From Methylophilus sp. Leaf416 (GTDB taxonomy: Bacteria; Pseudomonadota; Gammaproteobacteria; Burkholderiales; Methylophilaceae), in contig NZ_LMQS01000005.1 in the NCBI RefSeq assembly GCF_001424665.1, forward strand, positions 248,322-312,321: a stretch of DNA of 64,000 bases, in the 5' to 3' direction. The translations under genes were made by a program, and so were the position numbers. A model generated the notes under the pieces. The model did not search any database. It was not told the DNA's origin and saw only the letters and a list, made by a program, of their open reading frames with translations. This document shows, piece after piece, positions 45,080-54,984 of the stretch. The stretch's first letter is position 1. The number at the start of each line of letters is the position of its first letter.

Positions 45080-46393
45080 TTACACCCGTTTAAGCGCTCG
45101 GTAGCCCGGTTTTGCCAGCAATAAATGCACATCGCCTAGCGCGCATTCGGCAAATCCGCCTTCGCAATAACTCAGGTAGAAATCCCACATGCGAATAAAA
45201 GTATCGCGATAACCTAACTGTTTCACCTGATCGAGATTGGCAAAGAAGTTCTCGCGCCACAAACGCAGGGTGGTCGCGTAATCCTGGCCAATATCCTGCA
45301 GATCTATTAAACGTAAATCACTCGCACGTGTCAGGCTAGTCAACATGGCGGTATTGGAAGGGATATTAGAGCCAGGGAAGATATAGCGCTGGATAAAATC
45401 CACCGAGCGAATAGCGCTTTTGTAGCGCTGATCCATAATCGTAATAGCTTGTATCAACGCAACCCCGTTTGGTTTCAGCAAATGGCTCACTTTATTGAAA
45501 TAGGTGTCGTAGTATTGATGACCCACTGCTTCTATCATTTCAATAGACACCAGCTTGTCGTATTGACCTTGCAAGTGACGATAATCCTGCTTGAGTAATA
45601 CGATTTTATCCTGCAAGCCTTCCGCTGCAACCCGCTCTTTTGCCAGCACAAACTGTTGCTGCGATATTGTGGTCGTGGTGACACGGCAACCATAATGCTT
45701 AGCGGCATAAATGGCGAATCCTCCCCAGCCAGTGCCTATCTCAATCACATGGTCTGCCGGCGACAGCTGCAATTTGTCACAAATCACTTTTAGCTTGCGT
45801 TCAGAAGCCGCCTGCAAGCGGCTGATATCCGCACTGGGCCTGTCTTCAGCATCGAACATGGCGGACGAGTACATCATGGTTGGGTCCAGAAACAACTTGA
45901 ATAAATCATTGCCCAGGTCGTAATGCGCGGCTATGTTTTTCTGACTGCCCGCTTCACTATTGCTGTTTAACCAGTGAAAAGCCTTAAGCATCGGTTTACT
46001 CAAATACTGGTAACCACCTTCAAGCGTATCCATCACAGACTGATTGAGCACCATCAGTCGCACCACATTGGTTAATGTGTCCGCCTGCCAATAACCGAGC
46101 ATATAGGCTTCGCCTGCCCCGATGCTGCCGCCGAACGCGATTTCGCCATAAAAACGCGGATCATAGACGGTGATACTGGCCTGGATTGCTTCTACATTGC
46201 TTTGGTGGGGAAGATGTCCGAAAACATGGCTTTCGTTACCATCAATAATAGTCAGCTGGCCGACTTTCAGTCCGGCCAACCGTTTGAGCACCTGCTTTTT
46301 TGCCAGTTGCGCGACCCATTTGGCACGACTTTTAGATTTTAAGGGTTTGGTCAGCGTGTCAGTGGAAAGGGCGTTTGAAGGCATTGAGTTCAT
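45080..46393 (-). CDS. cfa: Cyclopropane-fatty-acyl-phospholipid synthase
   Basis: 437 aa, matching long-form CFA synthases. N-terminal accessory domain (~1-140, with FYGEIAFGGSIGAGEAYMLG, ~91) then a SAM methyltransferase domain. HYDLGNDLFKLFLDPTMMYS (~158), DHVIEIGTGWGGFAIYAAKH (~215, SAM loop), YDKLVSIEMIEAVGHQYYDT (~287) and RYIFPGSNIPS (~340). It adds a methylene across the double bond of phospholipid acyl chains at the inner membrane. Works downstream of the desaturase in the same gene series; 2 bp from DUF1365. Confidence 0.93.
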   Translation of the reverse strand: MNSMPSNALSTDTLTKPLKSKSRAKWVAQLAKKQVLKRLAGLKVGQLTIIDGNESHVFGHLPHQSNVEAIQASITVYDPRFYGEIAFGGSIGAGEAYMLGYWQADTLTNVVRLMVLNQSVMDTLEGGYQYLSKPMLKAFHWLNSNSEAGSQKNIAAHYDLGNDLFKLFLDPTMMYSSAMFDAEDRPSADISRLQAASERKLKVICDKLQLSPADHVIEIGTGWGGFAIYAAKHYGCRVTTTTISQQQFVLAKERVAAEGLQDKIVLLKQDYRHLQGQYDKLVSIEMIEAVGHQYYDTYFNKVSHLLKPNGVALIQAITIMDQRYKSAIRSVDFIQRYIFPGSNIPSNTAMLTSLTRASDLRLIDLQDIGQDYATTLRLWRENFFANLDQVKQLGYRDTFIRMWDFYLSYCEGGFAECALGDVHLLLAKPGYRALKRV

Positions 46394-46395
46394 GA

Positions 46396-47184
46396 TTAAT
46401 CACCAAGTTTGGCGTGTTGTTTGGGGTGAGTGTAGAAAGGAATTCTTTTGAGCCATAGCCGCAGGGCTTGCCAGTAAATGGCTGCGATGACTTTGACAGT
46501 CATCCATGGATAGCTTAATAACATGCGATTTAAAGTACTTGCTTGCCAGGGATGTCTTTGTAATTTCAAGGTAGCGAAAAACGTAGCTTGCTCATGGTGC
46601 CAGTTTTGCATATGCACACTCAGTGCATCACCGGGTGCTGAAAATTGCCATTGATAATCGATATCCATGGGCATAAATGGCGAGACATGGAAATCTTTTT
46701 CCAGTTTGAACAGCATGGAAGTGGCCTGCTTTACTTCATGTACATAAGCAAACTGTTCTTTCCAGGGTGTGTTGGTAATATGGCTGACGATCGCCTGTAA
46801 CTCACCCTTAGGGTTGTAGCAATAGTAAAAACTGACCGGGTTAAAGCAGACGCCCCAGTAACGACAATGGGTGAGTAGACCAATTCTGCCGAGAGGGCGT
46901 TGGCAGGTATGTTTTTCAACCAGGTCACGTACACATTGGTCCAAAGGTTGATCTGGCGGGCCCAGATAGTCTTCGCGCTTAAAATAAGCCAGGTTAGGCT
47001 TAAGGTAAGACCACAAGCGATTGCTTTTAAATAGTAAAGGCAGCTCATCTAAATCCAGGTACAGCATAAAAAGCTGGTAACGGAAGCCATGAGCTTTCGG
47101 TTGCAATCTCTGATGGCTTATCCATCCAGTGTAGATAGCACTATGCAACTTTTCATTCTGATTTGACGCAGATGCCGCATTCAT
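46396..47184 (-). CDS. DUF1365 family protein
   Basis: 262 aa. Family motifs HSAIYTGWISHQRLQPKAHG-type opening (~14), LLTHCRYWGVCFNPVSFYYC (~103), TNTPWKEQFAYV (~137) and FHVSPFMPMDIDYQWQF (~164). Function unknown; members are nearly always beside a CFA-like methyltransferase and an FAD amine-oxidase-like protein, which is also the case here. The start overlaps the stop of the FAD gene by four bases, so the two are co-translated. No signal peptide. Confidence 0.9.
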   Translation of the reverse strand: MNAASASNQNEKLHSAIYTGWISHQRLQPKAHGFRYQLFMLYLDLDELPLLFKSNRLWSYLKPNLAYFKREDYLGPPDQPLDQCVRDLVEKHTCQRPLGRIGLLTHCRYWGVCFNPVSFYYCYNPKGELQAIVSHITNTPWKEQFAYVHEVKQATSMLFKLEKDFHVSPFMPMDIDYQWQFSAPGDALSVHMQNWHHEQATFFATLKLQRHPWQASTLNRMLLSYPWMTVKVIAAIYWQALRLWLKRIPFYTHPKQHAKLGD

Positions 47185-48434
47185 CGCATGGCTGCCTCAA
47201 AGTGTTTGATAGCGGCCAGCGCACTGACCACTCCATCCTCGTGGAAACCATTCTTCCAGTAAGCGCCAGCATAGCCTGTGCGATGGTGACCACTGATATC
47301 AGCATGCTGTAACTGTGCCTGGGCGCCGGCCAGGGTATAAAGCGGATGGCGGTATTGCAGCTTTTTAATCACTTTGGCCGGGTTAATCGCATTGGTGTAG
47401 TTAAGCGTCACCAGCAAAGGCTCTGTTGAGCGTATGCCTTGCAGGATATTCATATTGTAAGTGACTTGTACTTTGTCAGTGGGCTGCGCTGCGACGTGAT
47501 AATTCCAGGCCGCCCACGCCAGTTTGCGCTTGGGCATTAAGCTCGCGTCAGTATGTAAAAAAACCGTATTGTCCTGATAGGGAATTGCACCGAGTACTTC
47601 AAGTTCACTATCCGTTGCTTCAGTGCCAAGAATGGTTAAGGCTTCGTCACTATGGCAGGCAAAAAACACATAATCAAATCGTTGAGGCTGTTTGTTGGTA
47701 AACGTAAGCGTGACGCCAGCACTGTCTCTTTCAACGGTTTTTACGGGAGAATTCAGATGGATACGATCACGATAACCGGCAGTCACTTTTTCAACATAAC
47801 TTGCTGAACCACCGATAATCGTGCGCCATTGCGGCCTGTCATCGATACTCAACATGCCATGGTGATGAAAGAAGCGCACAAAAAAGCGGGCAGGGAACTG
47901 CAACATTTGCTGTGCATCGGTTGACCAGATTGCAGCCCCCATCGGTACTATGTAGTCACGAATAAACTGTGGCGAGTAACCATTCAGCGATAAATATTCC
48001 CCTAACGGAATTTCATTGCCTTCTGCCAGCAAAGCCAAAGATTGTTTGTTGAAGCGCAGAATATCGCGAATCATACGGTAAAACTTTGGCGATAGCAGGT
48101 TACGCCGCTGCGCAAACAGGCTATTAAGAGAAGTGCCATTGTATTCAAGATGCGTGACTTCATTACGTACGCTAAAGCTCATGTCGCTGTTGCGCCAGGC
48201 CACACCTGCTTCAATCAATATGCGTTCGAACTCAGGATAAGTTTTATCGTTAAATACAATAAAACCGGTATCAACCGCATGTGTTTCTCCGGCGATTTCT
48301 ACATGGTGGGTATGGGTGTGGCCGCCAATGTAGTCATTGGCCTCAAACACAGTGACCTTATGCTGTTTATGCAGGTGATAGGCGAGGGTGTTTCCAGCAA
48401 TACCACTGCCGATAATGGCAATATTCAAGCCCAT
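47181..48434 (-). CDS. FAD-dependent amine-oxidase-like oxidoreductase (lipid cluster)
   Basis: 417 aa. FAD site NIAIIGSGIAGNTLAYHL (~4), VFEANDYIGGHTHTH (~30), VDTGFIVFNDKTYPEF (~55) and the C-terminal GYAGAYWKNGFHEDGVVSAL (~392) match the NAD(P)/FAD-dependent proteins linked to DUF1365 and CFA genes. Related genes have been associated with bacterial acyl-chain desaturation or furan-fatty-acid formation; whether this one acts so is inference. It is sandwiched between desaturase (2 bp) and DUF1365 (4-bp overlap). Confidence 0.88.
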   Translation of the reverse strand: MGLNIAIIGSGIAGNTLAYHLHKQHKVTVFEANDYIGGHTHTHHVEIAGETHAVDTGFIVFNDKTYPEFERILIEAGVAWRNSDMSFSVRNEVTHLEYNGTSLNSLFAQRRNLLSPKFYRMIRDILRFNKQSLALLAEGNEIPLGEYLSLNGYSPQFIRDYIVPMGAAIWSTDAQQMLQFPARFFVRFFHHHGMLSIDDRPQWRTIIGGSASYVEKVTAGYRDRIHLNSPVKTVERDSAGVTLTFTNKQPQRFDYVFFACHSDEALTILGTEATDSELEVLGAIPYQDNTVFLHTDASLMPKRKLAWAAWNYHVAAQPTDKVQVTYNMNILQGIRSTEPLLVTLNYTNAINPAKVIKKLQYRHPLYTLAGAQAQLQHADISGHHRTGYAGAYWKNGFHEDGVVSALAAIKHFEAAMR

Positions 48435-48436
48435 TG

Positions 48437-49378
48437 TTAATCGCCCTTCACAGCATGCTGGTTGCGTACATCTATGGGTACTTGCTTGAGATTCCAGATC
48501 AGACCCAATGCGGCCAACACTTTAAGACCGTAATAGGTAAAGTCTATCTCCCACCAGTAAAATCCTTGCTTTACTGAACCAGGATAGTGATGATGGTTGT
48601 TATGCCAGCCTTCGCCAAGTGTGAGCAGTGCTAGCAACCAGTTATTACGGCTGTGGTCGCGAGTGGCATATCTGCGGCTACCCCAGACATGGGCTAATGA
48701 GTTAATACAAAACGTGGCGTGATAGAGAACGATAGTAGAAACGACAAACCCCCAAACCAGCAACTGCCAGCCATTGGTATGCAGTTGCGGGACGTAAACA
48801 CGAAGCAATTCCCCTAATGCAAAAATAGCGGCCGCGAACCCAATAGGAACGATGCTATCAAAACGATCAAGCCAGCATAGCTCGCGAAAACGGGTAAGTT
48901 CACGCACCCGATCAAGCTGGGTCTTGAAACTGGCATGACTCAGAAACCAACCCAAATGGCTCCATAAAAAGCCTTGTTGATAGGGAGAGTGAATATCTTG
49001 TGGTTGATCGGCATGCACATGATGGTTGCGGTGATGGGCTGCCCACCACAATGGTCCACGTTGAACGGCGGTGGCACCAATGAGGGCAAACAGAAACTGC
49101 CCTGCGCGAGAAGTTTGAAAAGTTTTATGCGCAAAATAGCGATGATAAAAGCCGGTAATGGCAAACATGCGTGACACATACATGACCACGGCAAAGACAA
49201 CCGCAAACGGGCTCCAGCCAACCCAGAATAAAGCCACCAACGCCAGGTGCAAGGCTACAAATGGCACTACCCGCCACCAGTCGATACTCTCGGCACTGGC
49301 ATTGGCTGGTGGCTGATAACGCTGGTTATCCAGCCAGCCTACCAGCCTGCCAAATAGCCCCCAAATGCGGTAATGCAT
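48437..49378 (-). CDS. Fatty-acid (acyl-CoA type) desaturase
   Basis: 313 aa integral-membrane di-iron desaturase. The three histidine boxes are intact: HRYFAHKTF (~99), HRNHHVHAD (~136) and HNNHHHYPG (~269). Four membrane helices in the usual two pairs. It inserts a double bond (probably delta-9) into acyl chains, giving the substrate that CFA-type enzymes in the same cluster act on. Downstream of the lipocalin gene by 33 bp. Electron donor not encoded here. Confidence 0.92.
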   Translation of the reverse strand: MHYRIWGLFGRLVGWLDNQRYQPPANASAESIDWWRVVPFVALHLALVALFWVGWSPFAVVFAVVMYVSRMFAITGFYHRYFAHKTFQTSRAGQFLFALIGATAVQRGPLWWAAHHRNHHVHADQPQDIHSPYQQGFLWSHLGWFLSHASFKTQLDRVRELTRFRELCWLDRFDSIVPIGFAAAIFALGELLRVYVPQLHTNGWQLLVWGFVVSTIVLYHATFCINSLAHVWGSRRYATRDHSRNNWLLALLTLGEGWHNNHHHYPGSVKQGFYWWEIDFTYYGLKVLAALGLIWNLKQVPIDVRNQHAVKGD

Positions 49379-49411
49379 GTCACTTCCTTTTAAATAGCAA
49401 GCTTGATTAAA

Positions 49412-49975
49412 TTACAGGGGCGGTTTTGATGGTGCTTTTGCATTCAGGTGCGGGAAAATTTCCAGCTTGTTGATGTCATATCCCAACGCTTTGATTTTTG
49501 CCACCAGTTCGTTATAAGTCGCCTGATCTATCGCTGGCTTACGTGACATTAGCCAAACGTAATCGCGTTTGTTTCTGGCAACAATGGTGTGCTGGTAGTC
49601 ATCACTTAAATAAGTAATCAGGTATTCGGATTTGAAGGGCCACAGAAACTGCATTTTCCACTCAGCATTGCCACTATCCGGCACCACAAAACCTGTCGGA
49701 TGATAAACCTTAAGCTTGCCATCAAACCCACCCTGGTTGTACGTAAAGGTAGTCGCAATAGTGCCATCCGGATTTTTTTCATAATGCTCGACCGGGTTAT
49801 AGGGATCACGCTCCATAAAAGTGGGGATCGCCGCAATCACATACCAGTCACCCATAAAGCGATCAACATCGACTTTCTCGACCGTTTTGACCGGTGGTAA
49901 ATTTTGACAAGCACTCAGTCCGAATATACTCATTATACAAATCACTTTAATTAAATTTTTTAACATATTGATCAA
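49412..49975 (-). CDS. blc: Bacterial lipocalin (Blc-type lipoprotein)
   Basis: 187 aa. Signal peptide with lipobox GLSAC (Cys ~23), so membrane-anchored. Lipocalin motif DRFMGDWYVIAAIPTFMERD (~38) is the GxW signature; YLITYLSDDYQHTIVARNKR (~117) and VWLMSRKP (~139) complete the family. Blc binds fatty acids or lysophospholipids and is thought to serve membrane repair, which fits the neighbouring acyl-modifying genes. ATG at codon 4 is an alternative start. Confidence 0.9.
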   Translation of the reverse strand: MINMLKNLIKVICIMSIFGLSACQNLPPVKTVEKVDVDRFMGDWYVIAAIPTFMERDPYNPVEHYEKNPDGTIATTFTYNQGGFDGKLKVYHPTGFVVPDSGNAEWKMQFLWPFKSEYLITYLSDDYQHTIVARNKRDYVWLMSRKPAIDQATYNELVAKIKALGYDINKLEIFPHLNAKAPSKPPL

Positions 49976-49983
49976 ATAGCCTT

Positions 49984-50643
49984 TTAGACTAGTTTATAAA
50001 CGATTTTGTAACCCTCTGGCGTAATGGATTCAAGAGCAACCCACGCTTGTTGCTGGTCATACCAGAGTGTAATCTTTAACTTATCCTTGCCATTCAGGCG
50101 ACCATTCAGGCGATATTGACGGGTCTGTGTGCTTTGGCCTTTAACCATAATTGTTTTAGGACCTTCATCCGTTACCGTCACATCCAGATATTCAGCATTT
50201 TGCGGATTAAGCAGTCGCGGCTGTTTGAGGATTTCAGGGTTCCAGTAAGCAAAAGTCATGGTGCATGCGGGTAAAGTTTGCTGGTCAGAGTTTTTCGCGC
50301 TGTGTTTATCGACCACAAATTGTTTGTCTTGCAGCTGCCCATTTACGTCTGTGACGACTTTATTTTCTTCGGTGTGCGCCTTTAAACTGTTCAGGCATGC
50401 ACCTTGCCATGTTTCATCTGCCTGATGTGTGTAGCGATACGCGTTAATAAATAACACTTTTACATTGAAATCAGCACGGCTTTGCAACTGGTTGTTATTA
50501 AACGCAAAGGTATGGGTACCAATTTTTTGTTTATCCAGCCAAACCTCAAACGTCCAGTCTTTCGCTTGGGCGGTCGACAACATACCTAGACTTAAGGCAG
50601 TAAAAGCCAAAAACTGTTTTGCTTTATTAATCAAATTGATCAC
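49984..50643 (-). CDS. DUF6134-like secreted protein
   Basis: 219 aa from GTG 50643, five bases after the DUF1295 stop. The frame stays open to 50706, but that extension overlaps DUF1295 coding sequence. Signal peptide QFLAFTALSLGMLSTAQA, then DWTFEVWLDKQKIGTHTFAF, the opening of the DUF6134 family. Remaining strands (ADFNVKVLFINAYRYTHQAD) fit a soluble periplasmic beta-rich protein. Function unknown; the family is found in CFA/DUF1365/DUF2878 clusters. Family assignment from motif memory, so moderately sure. Confidence 0.75.
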   Translation of the reverse strand: MINLINKAKQFLAFTALSLGMLSTAQAKDWTFEVWLDKQKIGTHTFAFNNNQLQSRADFNVKVLFINAYRYTHQADETWQGACLNSLKAHTEENKVVTDVNGQLQDKQFVVDKHSAKNSDQQTLPACTMTFAYWNPEILKQPRLLNPQNAEYLDVTVTDEGPKTIMVKGQSTQTRQYRLNGRLNGKDKLKITLWYDQQQAWVALESITPEGYKIVYKLV

Positions 50644-50647
50644 GCAT

Positions 50648-51409
50648 CTACTCGCTTTTTGGAATGCCAGGAATAAAAGCATTGGTATTTTTGACGTAAG
50701 CAGCATAACCGGGACGGCGGCTATGGATAGTTTTCTCCATCAAGCTGACACCACTCACTTTCAATAGTAATAAGGTCATGATGATGGGCGATAGCCATAC
50801 CCAGGGATTGCCGGTAGCGGCGCCAAATAAAGCGAAACCCCACCAGATCAGGCTCTCACCAAAGTAATTGGGGTGGCGGCTGTAGCGCCAAAGGCCGGTG
50901 TTTAATACGGCATTTTCGTTTTCAGCTTGATTGCGGAAGCGCATTAACTGGATATCAGCCACGACTTCCCAGTAAAAACCAATCAAAAACAACGCAACAC
51001 CGGCGTAATCCAACCAGAGTAAAGGTGCTTGATCATGGATGGCAGCATATAAAGGATAAGAAATGATCCAGGCCAGCACTGCCTGAAATGCAAAAATGAT
51101 ATAAACGCTTTTAAACCAGAAGTGTGGTTCGTTATTTTTACGGATAGTTTCATAGCGGTGGTCTTCCTTGCCCCAGTTGCGCCAGGTAAGAAAGATACTC
51201 AATCTAAGTGACCACAATGTGACTGCTGCCAATACCAGGCAGGCGCGCAAAGATAGATCATAGGTAAAGATGGCAGTAATAAAGGCGGTGATTGCCATAA
51301 ACAGGCTCCACATACTGTCGACATGGCTGTAATGGCGGGTAGCGAAGCTTAAAAGCCAGCCGCTCAGGGCAAACATCAAAATCGCAATCAATGCATAAAA
51401 GTAGATCAT
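50648..51409 (-). CDS. DUF1295 membrane protein (steroid 5-alpha-reductase-like fold)
   Basis: 253 aa from ATG 51409, which overlaps the DUF2878 stop (ATGA). A longer frame to 51496 lies within the DUF2878 coding sequence. About seven membrane helices. LRLSIFLTWRNWGKEDHRYE (~84), TGLWRYSRHPNYFGESLIWW (~181-200) and SRRPGYAAYVKNTNAFIPGI (~230) are DUF1295/isoprenylcysteine-methyltransferase-like motifs. It is probably a NADPH-dependent reductase or methyltransferase acting on a lipid. Confidence 0.9.
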   Translation of the reverse strand: MIYFYALIAILMFALSGWLLSFATRHYSHVDSMWSLFMAITAFITAIFTYDLSLRACLVLAAVTLWSLRLSIFLTWRNWGKEDHRYETIRKNNEPHFWFKSVYIIFAFQAVLAWIISYPLYAAIHDQAPLLWLDYAGVALFLIGFYWEVVADIQLMRFRNQAENENAVLNTGLWRYSRHPNYFGESLIWWGFALFGAATGNPWVWLSPIIMTLLLLKVSGVSLMEKTIHSRRPGYAAYVKNTNAFIPGIPKSE

Positions 51410-51942
51410 GCGGGTTTCCCGAGAATGGTTTGAGAGAACTGCCGGCGTATCCAAAACATTAATGGCATGGCGATTGCCCATTCCAGCGCTACCCACGCCA
51501 GGCTAAGCGTGGGATGGGGCAGGTGTATCACCTGTAATTTTGCGGAGCCAAGATAAGCCAGAGGGCCAAAAATGCCACCCAGTATTGCTGCAAGCATAGG
51601 TTTAGGCTGTAACCAGCGCATGCTGACGTTTAAGGTACAGGCAAATGCCAGCCATAATGCAATCATCCAGAGTGGAATATAACTTGTCCAGAATTCCGGG
51701 TATTCAAAACTGATCAATCCCATGTAATAGCCTATCTGGTCAAGCAAGCAGCCAATCAAAGCGGTGATGATGAGCGGTAAAGCTTGCTGCCAGCCTTCAA
51801 CCCACTCTAAATGGGCTAGAGTAAAAATGATGACCAGCAGGAAAACAGCAAAACCCAATCCTGGTTTAGCTGATAGCACACACGCCCACCAAAGAATTTG
51901 GAACGAGATAAAATTAAATATAATCAATTTATTAGAGTTCAT
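51406..51942 (-). CDS. DUF2878 membrane protein
   Basis: 178 aa with five membrane helices. Opening IIFNFISFQILWWACVLSA and WTSYIPLWMIALWLAFACTL (~84) with a conserved aromatic pattern match DUF2878. No known function; occurs with DUF1295, DUF1365 and CFA-family genes in a lipid-modification cluster. The ATG lies 17 bp after the stop of the CFA-like methyltransferase, and its stop overlaps the DUF1295 start. Confidence 0.88.
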   Translation of the reverse strand: MNSNKLIIFNFISFQILWWACVLSAKPGLGFAVFLLVIIFTLAHLEWVEGWQQALPLIITALIGCLLDQIGYYMGLISFEYPEFWTSYIPLWMIALWLAFACTLNVSMRWLQPKPMLAAILGGIFGPLAYLGSAKLQVIHLPHPTLSLAWVALEWAIAMPLMFWIRRQFSQTILGKPA

Positions 51943-51959
51943 ATTTAATGTTTAACTTC

Positions 51960-53066
51960 TCATTTTTTCGAGAACAAATAATGACTTACCCACCAGGTTT
52001 GTCCTTGGTTATAGCCGAATAGCTCGGCACATGCCATATAGAATATTCGCCAGCGCTGCCGCCACAGTTCAGCGTCATCTGTACCATATATAGATTGCAG
52101 CACCGGGGTAAGCAAAGCATGATTTTGGTCCATATTTTCCAGCCATGCATTGGCAGTTTTTTCGTAGTGAGTGCCGTCCCAGCGCCATTTTTCGATGATT
52201 TTCAAATCATCCTGGAAATATAGTGGCAGATCGTCACTGGGCATCATGCCGCCACTAAAAAAATACTGACTCATCCAGTCATCATCCGCCTTGACATCAA
52301 ATGTATAAGGCACGTGACGATGCACAAAAATATGCTTGAAAAACAATCCATCAGACTTTAACCAGCGCGCTACTTTGGCATATAAAACCTGGTAATTCCG
52401 CATGTGCTCGAACATCTCTACCGATACTATGCGGTCAAACGTTTGATCGGTATCGAACACATTCATATCCGCGGTAATGATGTTGATATTAGAAAGCCCA
52501 CGCAGGTTGGCCTGCTGCAAAATATATTCCCGCTGTGAGGCGGAATTAGAAACACCAGTGATTCGGGCATTCGGGTAATGACTGGCCATCCAGAACGTTA
52601 ATGAACCCCACCCGCAGCCTAATTCCAATATCTGTTGACCATCTTGTAGCAGTGCATGCGCACAGGTCTGTGAAAGTGCTAATTGCTCTGCTTCATCCAA
52701 AGTTTTTGTTTCAGGTGACCAGTAGCAACTGCTGTATTTACGATTAACGCCCAGGCAATAGTTATAAAATATGGCGGGGACTTCGTAATGCTGCGCATTT
52801 GCCTTTTCCGGTAGGGGAGCAATCTCAGAACTTTGCATCTGCTCTATAAATTTGATAAGTGCAGATTGCGCGCGTTCGCAATTTTCTTCATTGATTTCAA
52901 TTAACCTGTCCTTGCATAGCTTTTGTATTCCTTTCCGGATAAGTGCATCAGGTATCAGGCCTTTTTCGGCAAGTTTTAGCGCTGCAGTTGCAATTGAACT
53001 CATATTTATTATCGCACTAACTATTTCGTTGTTGTTAAGTCCATCATAAACTGAGTTTAGTTTCAT
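51960..53066 (-). CDS. CFA/coclaurine N-methyltransferase-like SAM methyltransferase
   Basis: 368 aa. Lacks the N-terminal accessory domain of the cfa product at 45080 and differs in motifs. HYEVPAIFYNYCLGVNRKYS (~92), ILELGCGWGSLTFWMASHYP (~145, SAM loop), VSVEMFEHMRNYQVLYAKVA (~213), DDDWMSQYFFSGGMMPSDDL (~260) and GTHYEKTANAWLENMD (~303). The blocks FEHMRNY and YFFSGGMMPS resemble plant coclaurine N-methyltransferase-type CFA-like proteins. Likely methylates an unsaturated fatty acyl chain. First gene of the minus-strand lipid series; its promoter should be in 53067-53184. Confidence 0.87.
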   Translation of the reverse strand: MKLNSVYDGLNNNEIVSAIINMSSIATAALKLAEKGLIPDALIRKGIQKLCKDRLIEINEENCERAQSALIKFIEQMQSSEIAPLPEKANAQHYEVPAIFYNYCLGVNRKYSSCYWSPETKTLDEAEQLALSQTCAHALLQDGQQILELGCGWGSLTFWMASHYPNARITGVSNSASQREYILQQANLRGLSNINIITADMNVFDTDQTFDRIVSVEMFEHMRNYQVLYAKVARWLKSDGLFFKHIFVHRHVPYTFDVKADDDWMSQYFFSGGMMPSDDLPLYFQDDLKIIEKWRWDGTHYEKTANAWLENMDQNHALLTPVLQSIYGTDDAELWRQRWRIFYMACAELFGYNQGQTWWVSHYLFSKK

Positions 53067-53184
53067 CGTGCAAAAAATTTTTAAATGGCCGCCTTGGGGT
53101 AGTGGCGTTTACTTGGAGACTTAACTGTTTCAAGTTTATATTTAACATGTATACTAATCTGTATAGTTTACTAGATATTTTGAG
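53067..53184. promoter_or_regulatory. Divergent promoter region of lipid cluster and PQQ dehydrogenase
   Basis: 118 bp between divergent genes. On the plus strand TATACT near 53151 could be a -10 for the dehydrogenase, with only a weak TTTCAA as -35. I cannot assign minus-strand boxes. Confidence 0.35.
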
Positions 53185-54984
53185 ATGAAACCCTCTATGA
53201 CGCGTACACTTTTTCGTTATTTAAGCTTGGCATCTATCACAGCCTTAATGGCTTGCACACAAGTTTCCAAGCCGACTTCAAGCAATACCGGCAATGTAGA
53301 TTGGCCAAGTTATGGCTTAGATCTGAAGTCGCAGCGGTTTTCAAATCTGTCACAAATAAATCAGCATAATGTCTCAACATTAAAAACAGCCTGGAAAGTG
53401 GAAACTGGCGTCAAAGCGACATTCCAGGCCACACCCATCGTGGTGAATGGCATCATGTATGTCAGCCTGCCTTTTAATCATGTATTGGCGCTAGATGCAG
53501 CAACGGGTAAACAACTCTGGAAATATTCGCATGATCGCAAAGCAGATTGGGCCATGTGTTGCGGACCTGCCAATCGCGGCGTCGCAGTGGCTCAAGACAA
53601 GGTATATATTGGTACCGTAGATGCAAGATTAATCGCGCTAGATGCTAAAACCGGACAAAAACTTTGGGATATTGATGTAGCAGCCAGCCAGGTGACTACA
53701 GAGCAGCAAGGTACATTAAATAGCAGCGACCCTAATAAAACCCGAAAAATCACTGGTGGCACCGGCGTAGGCATTGCCATGGCGCCGGTCGTGTTTAACA
53801 ACAAGGTCATCATCGGCATTACCGGCGTAGGTTATGGATTACATATTGATAATCCTCGCAGCGATGCGCCATTGGGTGCCGTGATTGGCGTCACTGGGCG
53901 CTATGGTCGTCCTGGCTTTCTGGCTGCATTTGATGCGAACGATGGGCATCGTGTCTGGCAGTTTGATACTATCCCGACCAAAGGATGGGAAGGCAACTTT
54001 ACGACGCAAACCTCTGATGGCAGCCATTTTGAACGTGATGTTGCAGAAGAGAAAGCGGCGCTTAAAACATATCCTGATGCTGCCACTTTTGGTGGAGGAT
54101 CAGCGTGGAGCACGCCTGCCATTGATGCCAATACCAATACCTTGTATTTCGGAACCGGCAATCCATCGCCGCAAATGAATGATGTTTCAAGACCCGGAGA
54201 TAATTTATATACCGTCTCATTGGTCGCACTGGATACCGAGACCGGTAAATATAAGTGGCATTATCAGCAAGTGCCACATGACTTGTGGGGATACGATTTA
54301 GCAAGCCCGCCTGTCCTGTTTCAATACAATCATCATGGCAAAAATATTGCTGCTGTGGGGCAAGCCAGCAAAACAGGATGGTTCTATATTCATGATCGGG
54401 TCACTGGTGAATTTTTAGCCAAATCGGAAGCGTTTGTGCCGCAACATAACCTGTTTAAAAAACCTAGCATAGAAGGGACAGTCGTTTATCCTGGGATACT
54501 TGGCGGTTCAAACTGGTCGCCTGCCAGCGTAGATGAGCAACAACAAAAAGTGTTCGTCGCTGCTATGCATAGCCCGATCAAGTACACCATCCATGAAACA
54601 GATAACGATGATGGCAAGCATTCTATGCGCTATACATCCAGCGAACCTACCGATGATGCGCGTTGGGGTTTGTTAAGCGCGATTGATTTGAATTCCGGAA
54701 AAATCGCCTGGCAGCAAAAAACGGCACAACCCCTGGTAGGCGGCGTGTTATCGACAGCAGGGGGCTTGTTATTTTCAGGTGAAGGCAATGGCATGTTTAC
54801 AGCTTATGCCAGCCAAACAGGTAAACCCTTATGGCATTATCAATCGGAATATGGTGTGAATGCGCCACCTATTACTTACCAGGTAAATGGCGAGCAATAT
54901 ATTGCAGTCGTAAGCGGCGGTAACTCATTATTTGGTTTTAAACAAGGCGATAGCGTTCTCACATTTAAGCTGCCAAAACCTTAG
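53185..54984 (+). CDS. PQQ-dependent dehydrogenase family lipoprotein, divergent active site
   Basis: 599 aa eight-bladed propeller protein. Signal peptide with lipobox ALMAC (Cys ~24). PQQ-binding blade motifs throughout (DAATGKQLWKY, DAKTGQKLWDI, DTETGKYKWHY) and the vicinal disulfide Cys125-Cys126 (MCCGPANRG) of methanol/alcohol dehydrogenases. AWSTPAIDANTNTLYFGTGN (~310) has the metal-ligand Asn. The catalytic-aspartate block HDLWGYD has Gly369 where HDxWDYD has Asp, while Asp371 is kept. No methanol-dehydrogenase partner genes or cytochrome are near. Substrate unknown; activity uncertain. Confidence 0.85.
   Translation: MKPSMTRTLFRYLSLASITALMACTQVSKPTSSNTGNVDWPSYGLDLKSQRFSNLSQINQHNVSTLKTAWKVETGVKATFQATPIVVNGIMYVSLPFNHVLALDAATGKQLWKYSHDRKADWAMCCGPANRGVAVAQDKVYIGTVDARLIALDAKTGQKLWDIDVAASQVTTEQQGTLNSSDPNKTRKITGGTGVGIAMAPVVFNNKVIIGITGVGYGLHIDNPRSDAPLGAVIGVTGRYGRPGFLAAFDANDGHRVWQFDTIPTKGWEGNFTTQTSDGSHFERDVAEEKAALKTYPDAATFGGGSAWSTPAIDANTNTLYFGTGNPSPQMNDVSRPGDNLYTVSLVALDTETGKYKWHYQQVPHDLWGYDLASPPVLFQYNHHGKNIAAVGQASKTGWFYIHDRVTGEFLAKSEAFVPQHNLFKKPSIEGTVVYPGILGGSNWSPASVDEQQQKVFVAAMHSPIKYTIHETDNDDGKHSMRYTSSEPTDDARWGLLSAIDLNSGKIAWQQKTAQPLVGGVLSTAGGLLFSGEGNGMFTAYASQTGKPLWHYQSEYGVNAPPITYQVNGEQYIAVVSGGNSLFGFKQGDSVLTFKLPKP

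Follow-up and report, generated by a model that had tools for sequence, protein, structure and literature searches.

Which lipid is made by the gene cluster at positions 45080–53066 of the 64,000-nucleotide stretch of Methylophilus sp. Leaf416 DNA analysed here (the window)? The cluster comprises nine genes on the minus strand, all intact and tightly packed, and two of them code for methyltransferases of the family that includes cyclopropane fatty acid (CFA) synthase. Comparison with characterized proteins indicates that, very probably, it is an extended and conserved version of a complete furan fatty acid operon and not a cyclopropane cluster. Furan fatty acids are natural antioxidant lipids, and to our knowledge few organisms that make them are known. 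Their occurrence in some plants, fish and microbes has been described, and they have been linked to protection from membrane damage (PMC7380195).

A nine-gene operon with counterparts of the furan fatty acid enzymes

The pathway was established by Lemke et al., by deletion, expression and in vitro work, with genes of Rhodobacter sphaeroides (RSP2144; RSP1091–1087) and Rhodopseudomonas palustris CGA009 (RPA2569–2571, RPA0924); as described there, UfaM, UfaD and UfaO convert cis-vaccenoyl chains to 9M5-FuFA, a furan with one methyl group on the ring, and FufM is responsible for the dimethyl form, 9D5-FuFA (PMC7380195). The window encodes a relative of each of the four enzymes; the genes identified are as follows (FAD, flavin adenine dinucleotide):

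45080..46393, minus strand: ufaM-type phospholipid fatty-acyl methyltransferase with CMAS domain; predicted first step, giving a methylated trans-unsaturated acyl chain
46396..47184, minus strand: ufaO (DUF1365), predicted furan-forming oxygenase (PF07103, E 2.7e-84)
47181..48434, minus strand: ufaD, FAD protein of the amine-oxidase family, predicted to desaturate the methylated chain (PF01593, E 6.1e-19)
48437..49378, minus strand: membrane fatty-acyl desaturase, predicted supplier of the monounsaturated substrate (PF00487)
49412..49975, minus strand: Blc-like lipocalin, apparent lipoprotein (LSAC-Q in the translation; PF08212, E 1.8e-40)
49984..50706, minus strand: DUF6134 protein with apparent signal peptide (PF19630, E 2.2e-45)
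50648..51409, minus strand: DUF1295 membrane protein, predicted reductase or third methyltransferase (PF06966)
51406..51942, minus strand: DUF2878 protein (PF11086, E 6.7e-39)
51960..53003, minus strand: fufM-type methyltransferase, predicted second methylation of the furan ring (46% identical to its counterpart in R. palustris JSC-3b)

The best Pfam matches of the nine products (CMAS, DUF1365, Amino_oxidase, FA_desaturase, Lipocalin_2, DUF6134, DUF1295, DUF2878 and CMAS) all lie above cut-off. Intergenic gaps measure 2–33 bp; ufaD and ufaO overlap by 4 bp, as do the DUF2878 and DUF1295 genes if the latter starts at 51409, and the DUF6134 and DUF1295 genes share 59 bp provided that the former starts at 50706. 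The original prediction, made from the sequence alone, had named these nine genes as consecutive on one strand with small gaps or overlaps, which is borne out: all lie intact at the positions given, and their families agree with Pfam. It had also suggested an unusual methylated or furan acyl lipid as product, and the furan lipid is now well supported by homology, because each of the four enzymes with a proven part in furan fatty acid synthesis has a counterpart in the cluster.

Comparison sequences were taken from R. palustris strain JSC-3b rather than from CGA009 or R. sphaeroides. UfaM shares 40% identity over 389 amino acids with the UfaO-adjacent UfaM of JSC-3b, UfaD 44% over 417 and UfaO 33% over 242. 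The PF07103 match of UfaO, the sole DUF1365 match in the genome, spans positions 1–235 of 235, so that a predicted full-length DUF1365 protein and a predicted FAD oxidoreductase (UfaD) stand in one operon. The predicted structure of UfaO (predicted local distance difference test score, pLDDT, 92.4) consists of a beta-barrel with two C-terminal helices and weakly resembles barrels of the spirocyclase, nitrobindin and fatty-acid-binding-protein-like kinds (best VIA-align Z 7.3; best Foldseek E 6.7e-3); these resemblances are too weak to name a cofactor. A sequence comparison of UfaO with solved structures gave no match up to E 1.

The two CMAS methyltransferases

The original prediction had spoken of two different CFA-type methyltransferases. 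At the Pfam level this holds, both proteins being above the PF02353 cut-off, but the label is misleading and neither protein looks like a cyclopropane synthase. The genome encodes a separate canonical Cfa (contig 2, L008) that scores 593 bits on the Cfa equivalog model with its 400-bit cut-off, whereas the first protein scores 278.3 bits and the second, which scores 153.7 bits, is nearest, among solved structures, to coclaurine N-methyltransferase.

In the alignment of UfaM with E. coli CFA, Gln, Ala and Ser occupy the positions of His266, His240 and Cys139; the genome's own canonical Cfa keeps all three residues. Glu239, His266 and Tyr317 are described as the bicarbonate ligands of CFA (PMC11387697). 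The replacements recur among UfaM genes whose fetched locus also contains UfaO, after removal of incomplete genes and of genes outside 330–480 amino acids: Gln stands at position 266 in 78 of 78, Ala at position 240 in 77 of 78, and Ser or Ala at position 139 in 74 of 78. Eight CMAS proteins of the Cfa or UfaM kind were compared from four named genomes. Three are encoded beside DUF1365 and all of these have Gln at 266; the five alphaproteobacterial proteins without an adjoining DUF1365 gene comprise four with His and one with Gln, the latter from Caulobacter OR37 and grouping with UfaM. A tree with 46 rows places 26 linked UfaM proteins, the window UfaM and the four Gln-bearing proteins of the named genomes in one group (support 98/89) apart from canonical Cfa, and the R. 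palustris UfaM, which was entered twice, falls in the same group as the window protein; the four Gln-bearing rows carried the label 'other', hence the five changes in the label test. The His266-to-Gln and His240-to-Ala signature together with the group support points to the first gene being of UfaM type, not CFA type, and His266-to-Gln offers a simple sequence test for separating UfaM from genes annotated as cyclopropane synthase.

A third CMAS protein of 453 amino acids is encoded elsewhere in the genome (contig 1:723982–724785, L009). It is very divergent, has Gly and Gln where CFA has the ligands Glu239 and Tyr317, and may not be a working cyclopropane synthase.

FufM of the window is 46% identical over 346 amino acids to a JSC-3b protein encoded next to a DUF1295 gene, and 27% identical to UfaM of that strain; the window FufM and its JSC-3b counterpart stand in one tree group with support 100/100. 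For comparison, FufM of R. palustris, described as adding the second methyl group to the furan ring, has 26% identity to UfaM (PMC7380195). In the window protein the bicarbonate-ligand positions are all conserved as Glu, His and Tyr, yet its score falls short of the Cfa cut-off. Among solved structures its best matches are coclaurine N-methyltransferase 6gkv and related N-methyltransferases (E 2.3e-76 to 2.5e-76), as compared to E 9.1e-31 for E. coli CFA; the Arabidopsis protein AT4G33110 is presumably coclaurine-N-methyltransferase-like as well. A putative FufM orthologue for the dimethyl product is present, judging from these comparisons.

Conservation and spread

A total of 120 relatives was searched, the window genome included, with E < 1e-100 as the criterion for FufM. 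FufM was found in 53, DUF1365 in 72 and both in 52 genomes; in other words, DUF1365 occurs in 52 of the 53 genomes with FufM, as against 20 of the 67 without. All nine genes are complete, on one strand and in the same order in 35 of the 52 related loci fetched, so the order is not due to chance. Complete copies in the 52 loci number 52 for FufM, 50 for DUF1295, 48 for DUF2878, 44 each for the lipocalin, the desaturase and UfaD, 43 for UfaO, 41 for UfaM and 40 for DUF6134; contig ends truncate five of the loci (L068, L072, L077, L092, L093). Even three genomes of 1.3 Mb (L084, L087, L089) retain eight of the genes. Conserved as it is within one bacterial family, the nine-gene operon points to concrete candidate producers of dimethyl furan acids.

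Farther afield, FufM was detected in 33 of 398 genomes sampled across the phylum (the window's included), and in 57 of 198 genomes of the family around G446, which has genomes close to Rhodopseudomonas. A scan with Rhodopseudomonas FufM as query returned at least 585 relatives; among the matches listed, the 80 best named loci include 48 with UfaO and 59 with DUF1295 no farther than about 6 kb away. Two loci from other families of the class (L268, L273) combine the desaturase and the lipocalin with all four enzymes. In a further family of the phylum, one locus (L264, genome G132) has eight of the nine genes, all except the desaturase, in the same order. Its FufM shows 64% identity, which is as high as within the family of the window genome and therefore suggests horizontal transfer.

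The relatives also bear on the gene starts. In 41 of 52 relatives the match to the last gene starts no earlier than residue 20, and six of the 11 matches with an earlier start cross a stop codon; fufM therefore probably starts at 53003 rather than at 53066. The DUF1295 gene probably starts with the ATG at 51409, not with the GTG at 51496, and the start codon of the DUF6134 gene at 50706 is uncertain.

Proposed pathway and alternative readings

We consider it highly likely that the product of the operon is furan fatty acids, carried in the membrane phospholipids. The desaturase of the operon, or lipid made with the help of FabA, would supply a monounsaturated acyl chain, which UfaM would methylate with S-adenosylmethionine to give a methyl-branched trans-ene. 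Desaturation by UfaD would yield a methylated conjugated diene, to which UfaO would add oxygen derived from O2, closing the furan ring; a second methylation of the ring by FufM would lead to the dimethyl furan. A 16:1 delta-9 substrate, in place of 18:1 delta-11, would give the C16-derived 7M5/7D5 furan fatty acid. Substrate, product, regulator, the functions of the five accessory genes and a likely antioxidant role of the lipid in the membrane are predictions throughout.

Several observations weigh against this assignment. The identity of UfaO to its counterpart is just 33%, and orthology with RPA0924 and RPA2569–2571 of strain CGA009 is something we infer from family and position. In three related genomes (L080–L082) the FufM, DUF2878 and DUF1295 genes lie 69–78 kb from the DUF1365 gene. 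A genome of the same genus (G013, L059) keeps an open FufM frame (65% identity) without a DUF1365 match, and the nearest solved relatives of FufM are N-methyltransferases. As to the accessory genes, three other genes of the R. sphaeroides ufaD–ufaO operon were reported as dispensable for the furan acid (PMC7380195), so that operon membership is no proof of a role.

Two of these observations would fit a pathway that ends at a methylated or conjugated-diene lipid or at the monomethyl furan, with the FufM-like protein acting elsewhere, for instance on a lipid head-group amine: its best solved relatives methylate nitrogen, and one genome keeps it without DUF1365. We regard this as improbable. The protein is 46% identical to the JSC-3b gene, and R. 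palustris FufM is described as a proven C-methylase of the furan (PMC7380195); moreover, that enzyme is itself 37.87% identical to the plant protein AT4G33110 (PMC10940516), and DUF1365 accompanies FufM in all but one of the 53 genomes. A cyclopropane or membrane-stress cluster, composed of two true CFA synthases and unrelated neighbours, would account for the two PF02353 matches, but it is hardly credible in view of the separate canonical Cfa, the scores of both window proteins below the Cfa cut-off, the missing His266 ligand of UfaM and the nine-gene synteny.

In G013, the other eight genes are missing between fufM and mnmC, leaving a lone open fufM frame, and FufM of this genome may have another substrate or be a relic.

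Accessory genes and the DUF1295 protein

The five further genes are probably part of the furan system, because all nine keep one order in 35 of the 52 related loci. They, and DUF1295 foremost, may hold missing steps of the pathway, and each is amenable to testing. The desaturase is the sole PF00487 match in the genome, and its closest solved relative is acyl-CoA desaturase 1 (E 4.5e-30). Since fabA is present elsewhere in the genome, normal unsaturated lipid need not depend on this enzyme, and supplying the furan operon with substrate would be its simplest role. The lipocalin, DUF6134 and DUF2878 proteins might, as a guess, serve in export or placement of the lipid. In the original prediction the desaturase and the lipocalin had appeared as additions; they are not odd, as both recur with these genes in relatives, in L268 and L273 and on a plasmid of Acinetobacter. 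A strain list includes a deletion of RPA0923, which adjoins fufM in R. palustris (PMC7380195).

The DUF1295 protein was modelled with high confidence (pLDDT 95.6). Foldseek ranked PbSRD5A (7c83) best, with E 7.9e-4, and gave E 1.2e-3 for the delta(14)-sterol reductase MaSR1; a sequence profile recovered the same families (PbSRD5A, E 3.8e-7). VIA-align returned Z 15.6 for MaSR1 4quv (root-mean-square deviation, rmsd, 3.5; 225 residues aligned), Z 14.8 for PbSRD5A 7c83 (rmsd 3.6; 201 aligned) and Z 12.6 for the methyltransferase ICMT 5v7p (rmsd 3.7; 167 aligned), and the first rows outside that fold followed at Z 6.9, a scale on which helical models may reach high values by chance. The model thus points to an overall fold of the steroid 5-alpha-reductase/sterol reductase type, which is common to ICMT. 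Residues D31, W34, R85, Y86 and RHPNY at 178–182, among others, are invariant in 61 of 61 aligned proteins. RHPNY also aligns with the RHP motif of ICMT 4a2n and so does not single out NADPH as the cofactor; a reductase appears more likely than a methyltransferase, a choice that fold and motif do not decide.

A tentative, rather speculative proposal is that DUF1295 provides a new step of dimethyl-furan metabolism, acting in the membrane as an enone reductase that clears the reactive ene-dione left by oxidation of the furan ring, within a self-contained module that has its own desaturase and can do without a ChrR-type regulator. If so, the lipid would become a renewable, or at least a safe, antioxidant. 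Among the open-licence PubMed Central matches listed, no joint report of furan fatty acids and DUF1295 was found.

Comparison with known systems

In R. palustris JSC-3b, UfaD, UfaO and UfaM are encoded together (L278) and DUF1295 lies directly beside fufM (L169). In contrast to the Rhodobacter and Rhodopseudomonas arrangements, all four enzymes are here encoded in one operon, accompanied by the desaturase, lipocalin, DUF6134, DUF2878 and DUF1295 genes, and the genome has no ChrR match. Similar in content is plasmid pYH12207-1 of Acinetobacter piscicola, which carries lipocalin, desaturase, UfaD, UfaO, UfaM, DUF1295 and FufM genes on one strand and, like the window, no sigma/anti-sigma pair among the features listed in its incomplete gene table; it differs in that DUF1295–FufM stands at the other end, DUF2878 and DUF6134 have no match, and a photolyase-family gene lies nearby. 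Plasmid clusters of Burkholderia anthina and Mesorhizobium terrae share UfaD–UfaO–UfaM, DUF1295–FufM and the lipocalin, but carry a sigma and an anti-sigma factor and have no match to the window's desaturase. A light-inducible Pseudomonas ufaM cluster controlled by LitR likewise combines ufaM with a gene for an FAD-dependent oxidoreductase; FufM does not figure in the passages compared (PMC9758184).

New here are the four furan enzymes in one operon with the only PF00487 desaturase of the genome, and the position of DUF1295, with its sterol-reductase-like fold, beside FufM in most of the loci compared (50 of 52 related loci, 59 of the best 80 named ones). No joint report of furan fatty acids and Methylophilaceae was found in open-licence PubMed Central.

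Regulation and the upstream palindrome

The original prediction had noted the absence of a sigma/anti-sigma pair. For the ChrR-type anti-sigma factor this stands, with no match to TIGR02451 genome-wide and a positive Caulobacter control; the sigma factor itself was not searched for. Light induction of ufaM and its connection with LitR regulators have been described in Pseudomonas (PMC9758184). No LitR-type site T(G/A)TACA-N12-TGTA(C/T)A lies near the operon, the window containing just one match, with one mismatch, at 1183–1206. Promoter- and terminator-like sites near the operon showed no excess over shuffles.

One further feature was recorded between the operon and a divergent gene of the pyrroloquinoline quinone (PQQ) type:

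53150..53165, minus strand: palindromic operator-like site TATACAGATTAGTATA, not assigned to the operon

A scan of 53 loci located the exact palindrome TATACMGNNNNGTATA upstream of fufM, at a distance of up to about 400 bp, in 18, which are the 18 same-genus loci of the set. The site at 53150–53165 is also found before fabA and a cupin gene in the window genome, and before a TetR-family gene in relatives; 22 same-genus genomes gave 103 matches as compared to 42 for a reversed control, counting both strands and thus self-complementary sites twice. An operator of the operon, or a regulator shared by fabA and the operon, was considered and rejected. Where the gap is longer, as in four loci (L054, L057, L064, L072), the palindrome lies 24–39 bp from the PQQ gene and more than 1.2 kb from fufM, and it precedes a PQQ-type gene (L318) in genome G019 (82% complete), which has no FufM or DUF1365 matches. 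The palindrome was not assigned to the operon because its position in several relatives tracks the PQQ gene, not fufM.

Sites of TATACMGNNNNGTATA were seen before the PQQ-type gene, fabA, a secreted cupin gene and a TetR-family gene (L288, L289, L308, L313, L319, L303, L314). In five relatives the site lies 79 bp upstream of a fabA-like ATG. The TetR-family gene is divergent from a polyketide-cyclase-like gene; TATACMGNNNNGTATA may mark a small TetR regulon that includes fabA. Such a TetR gene was not found in the examined parts of the window's own genome. The PQQ-type gene (53185–54984) codes for a beta-propeller protein with an apparent lipoprotein signal, below the cut-off of the alcohol dehydrogenase models, and lies next to the operon, in divergent orientation, in 30 of the 52 related loci.

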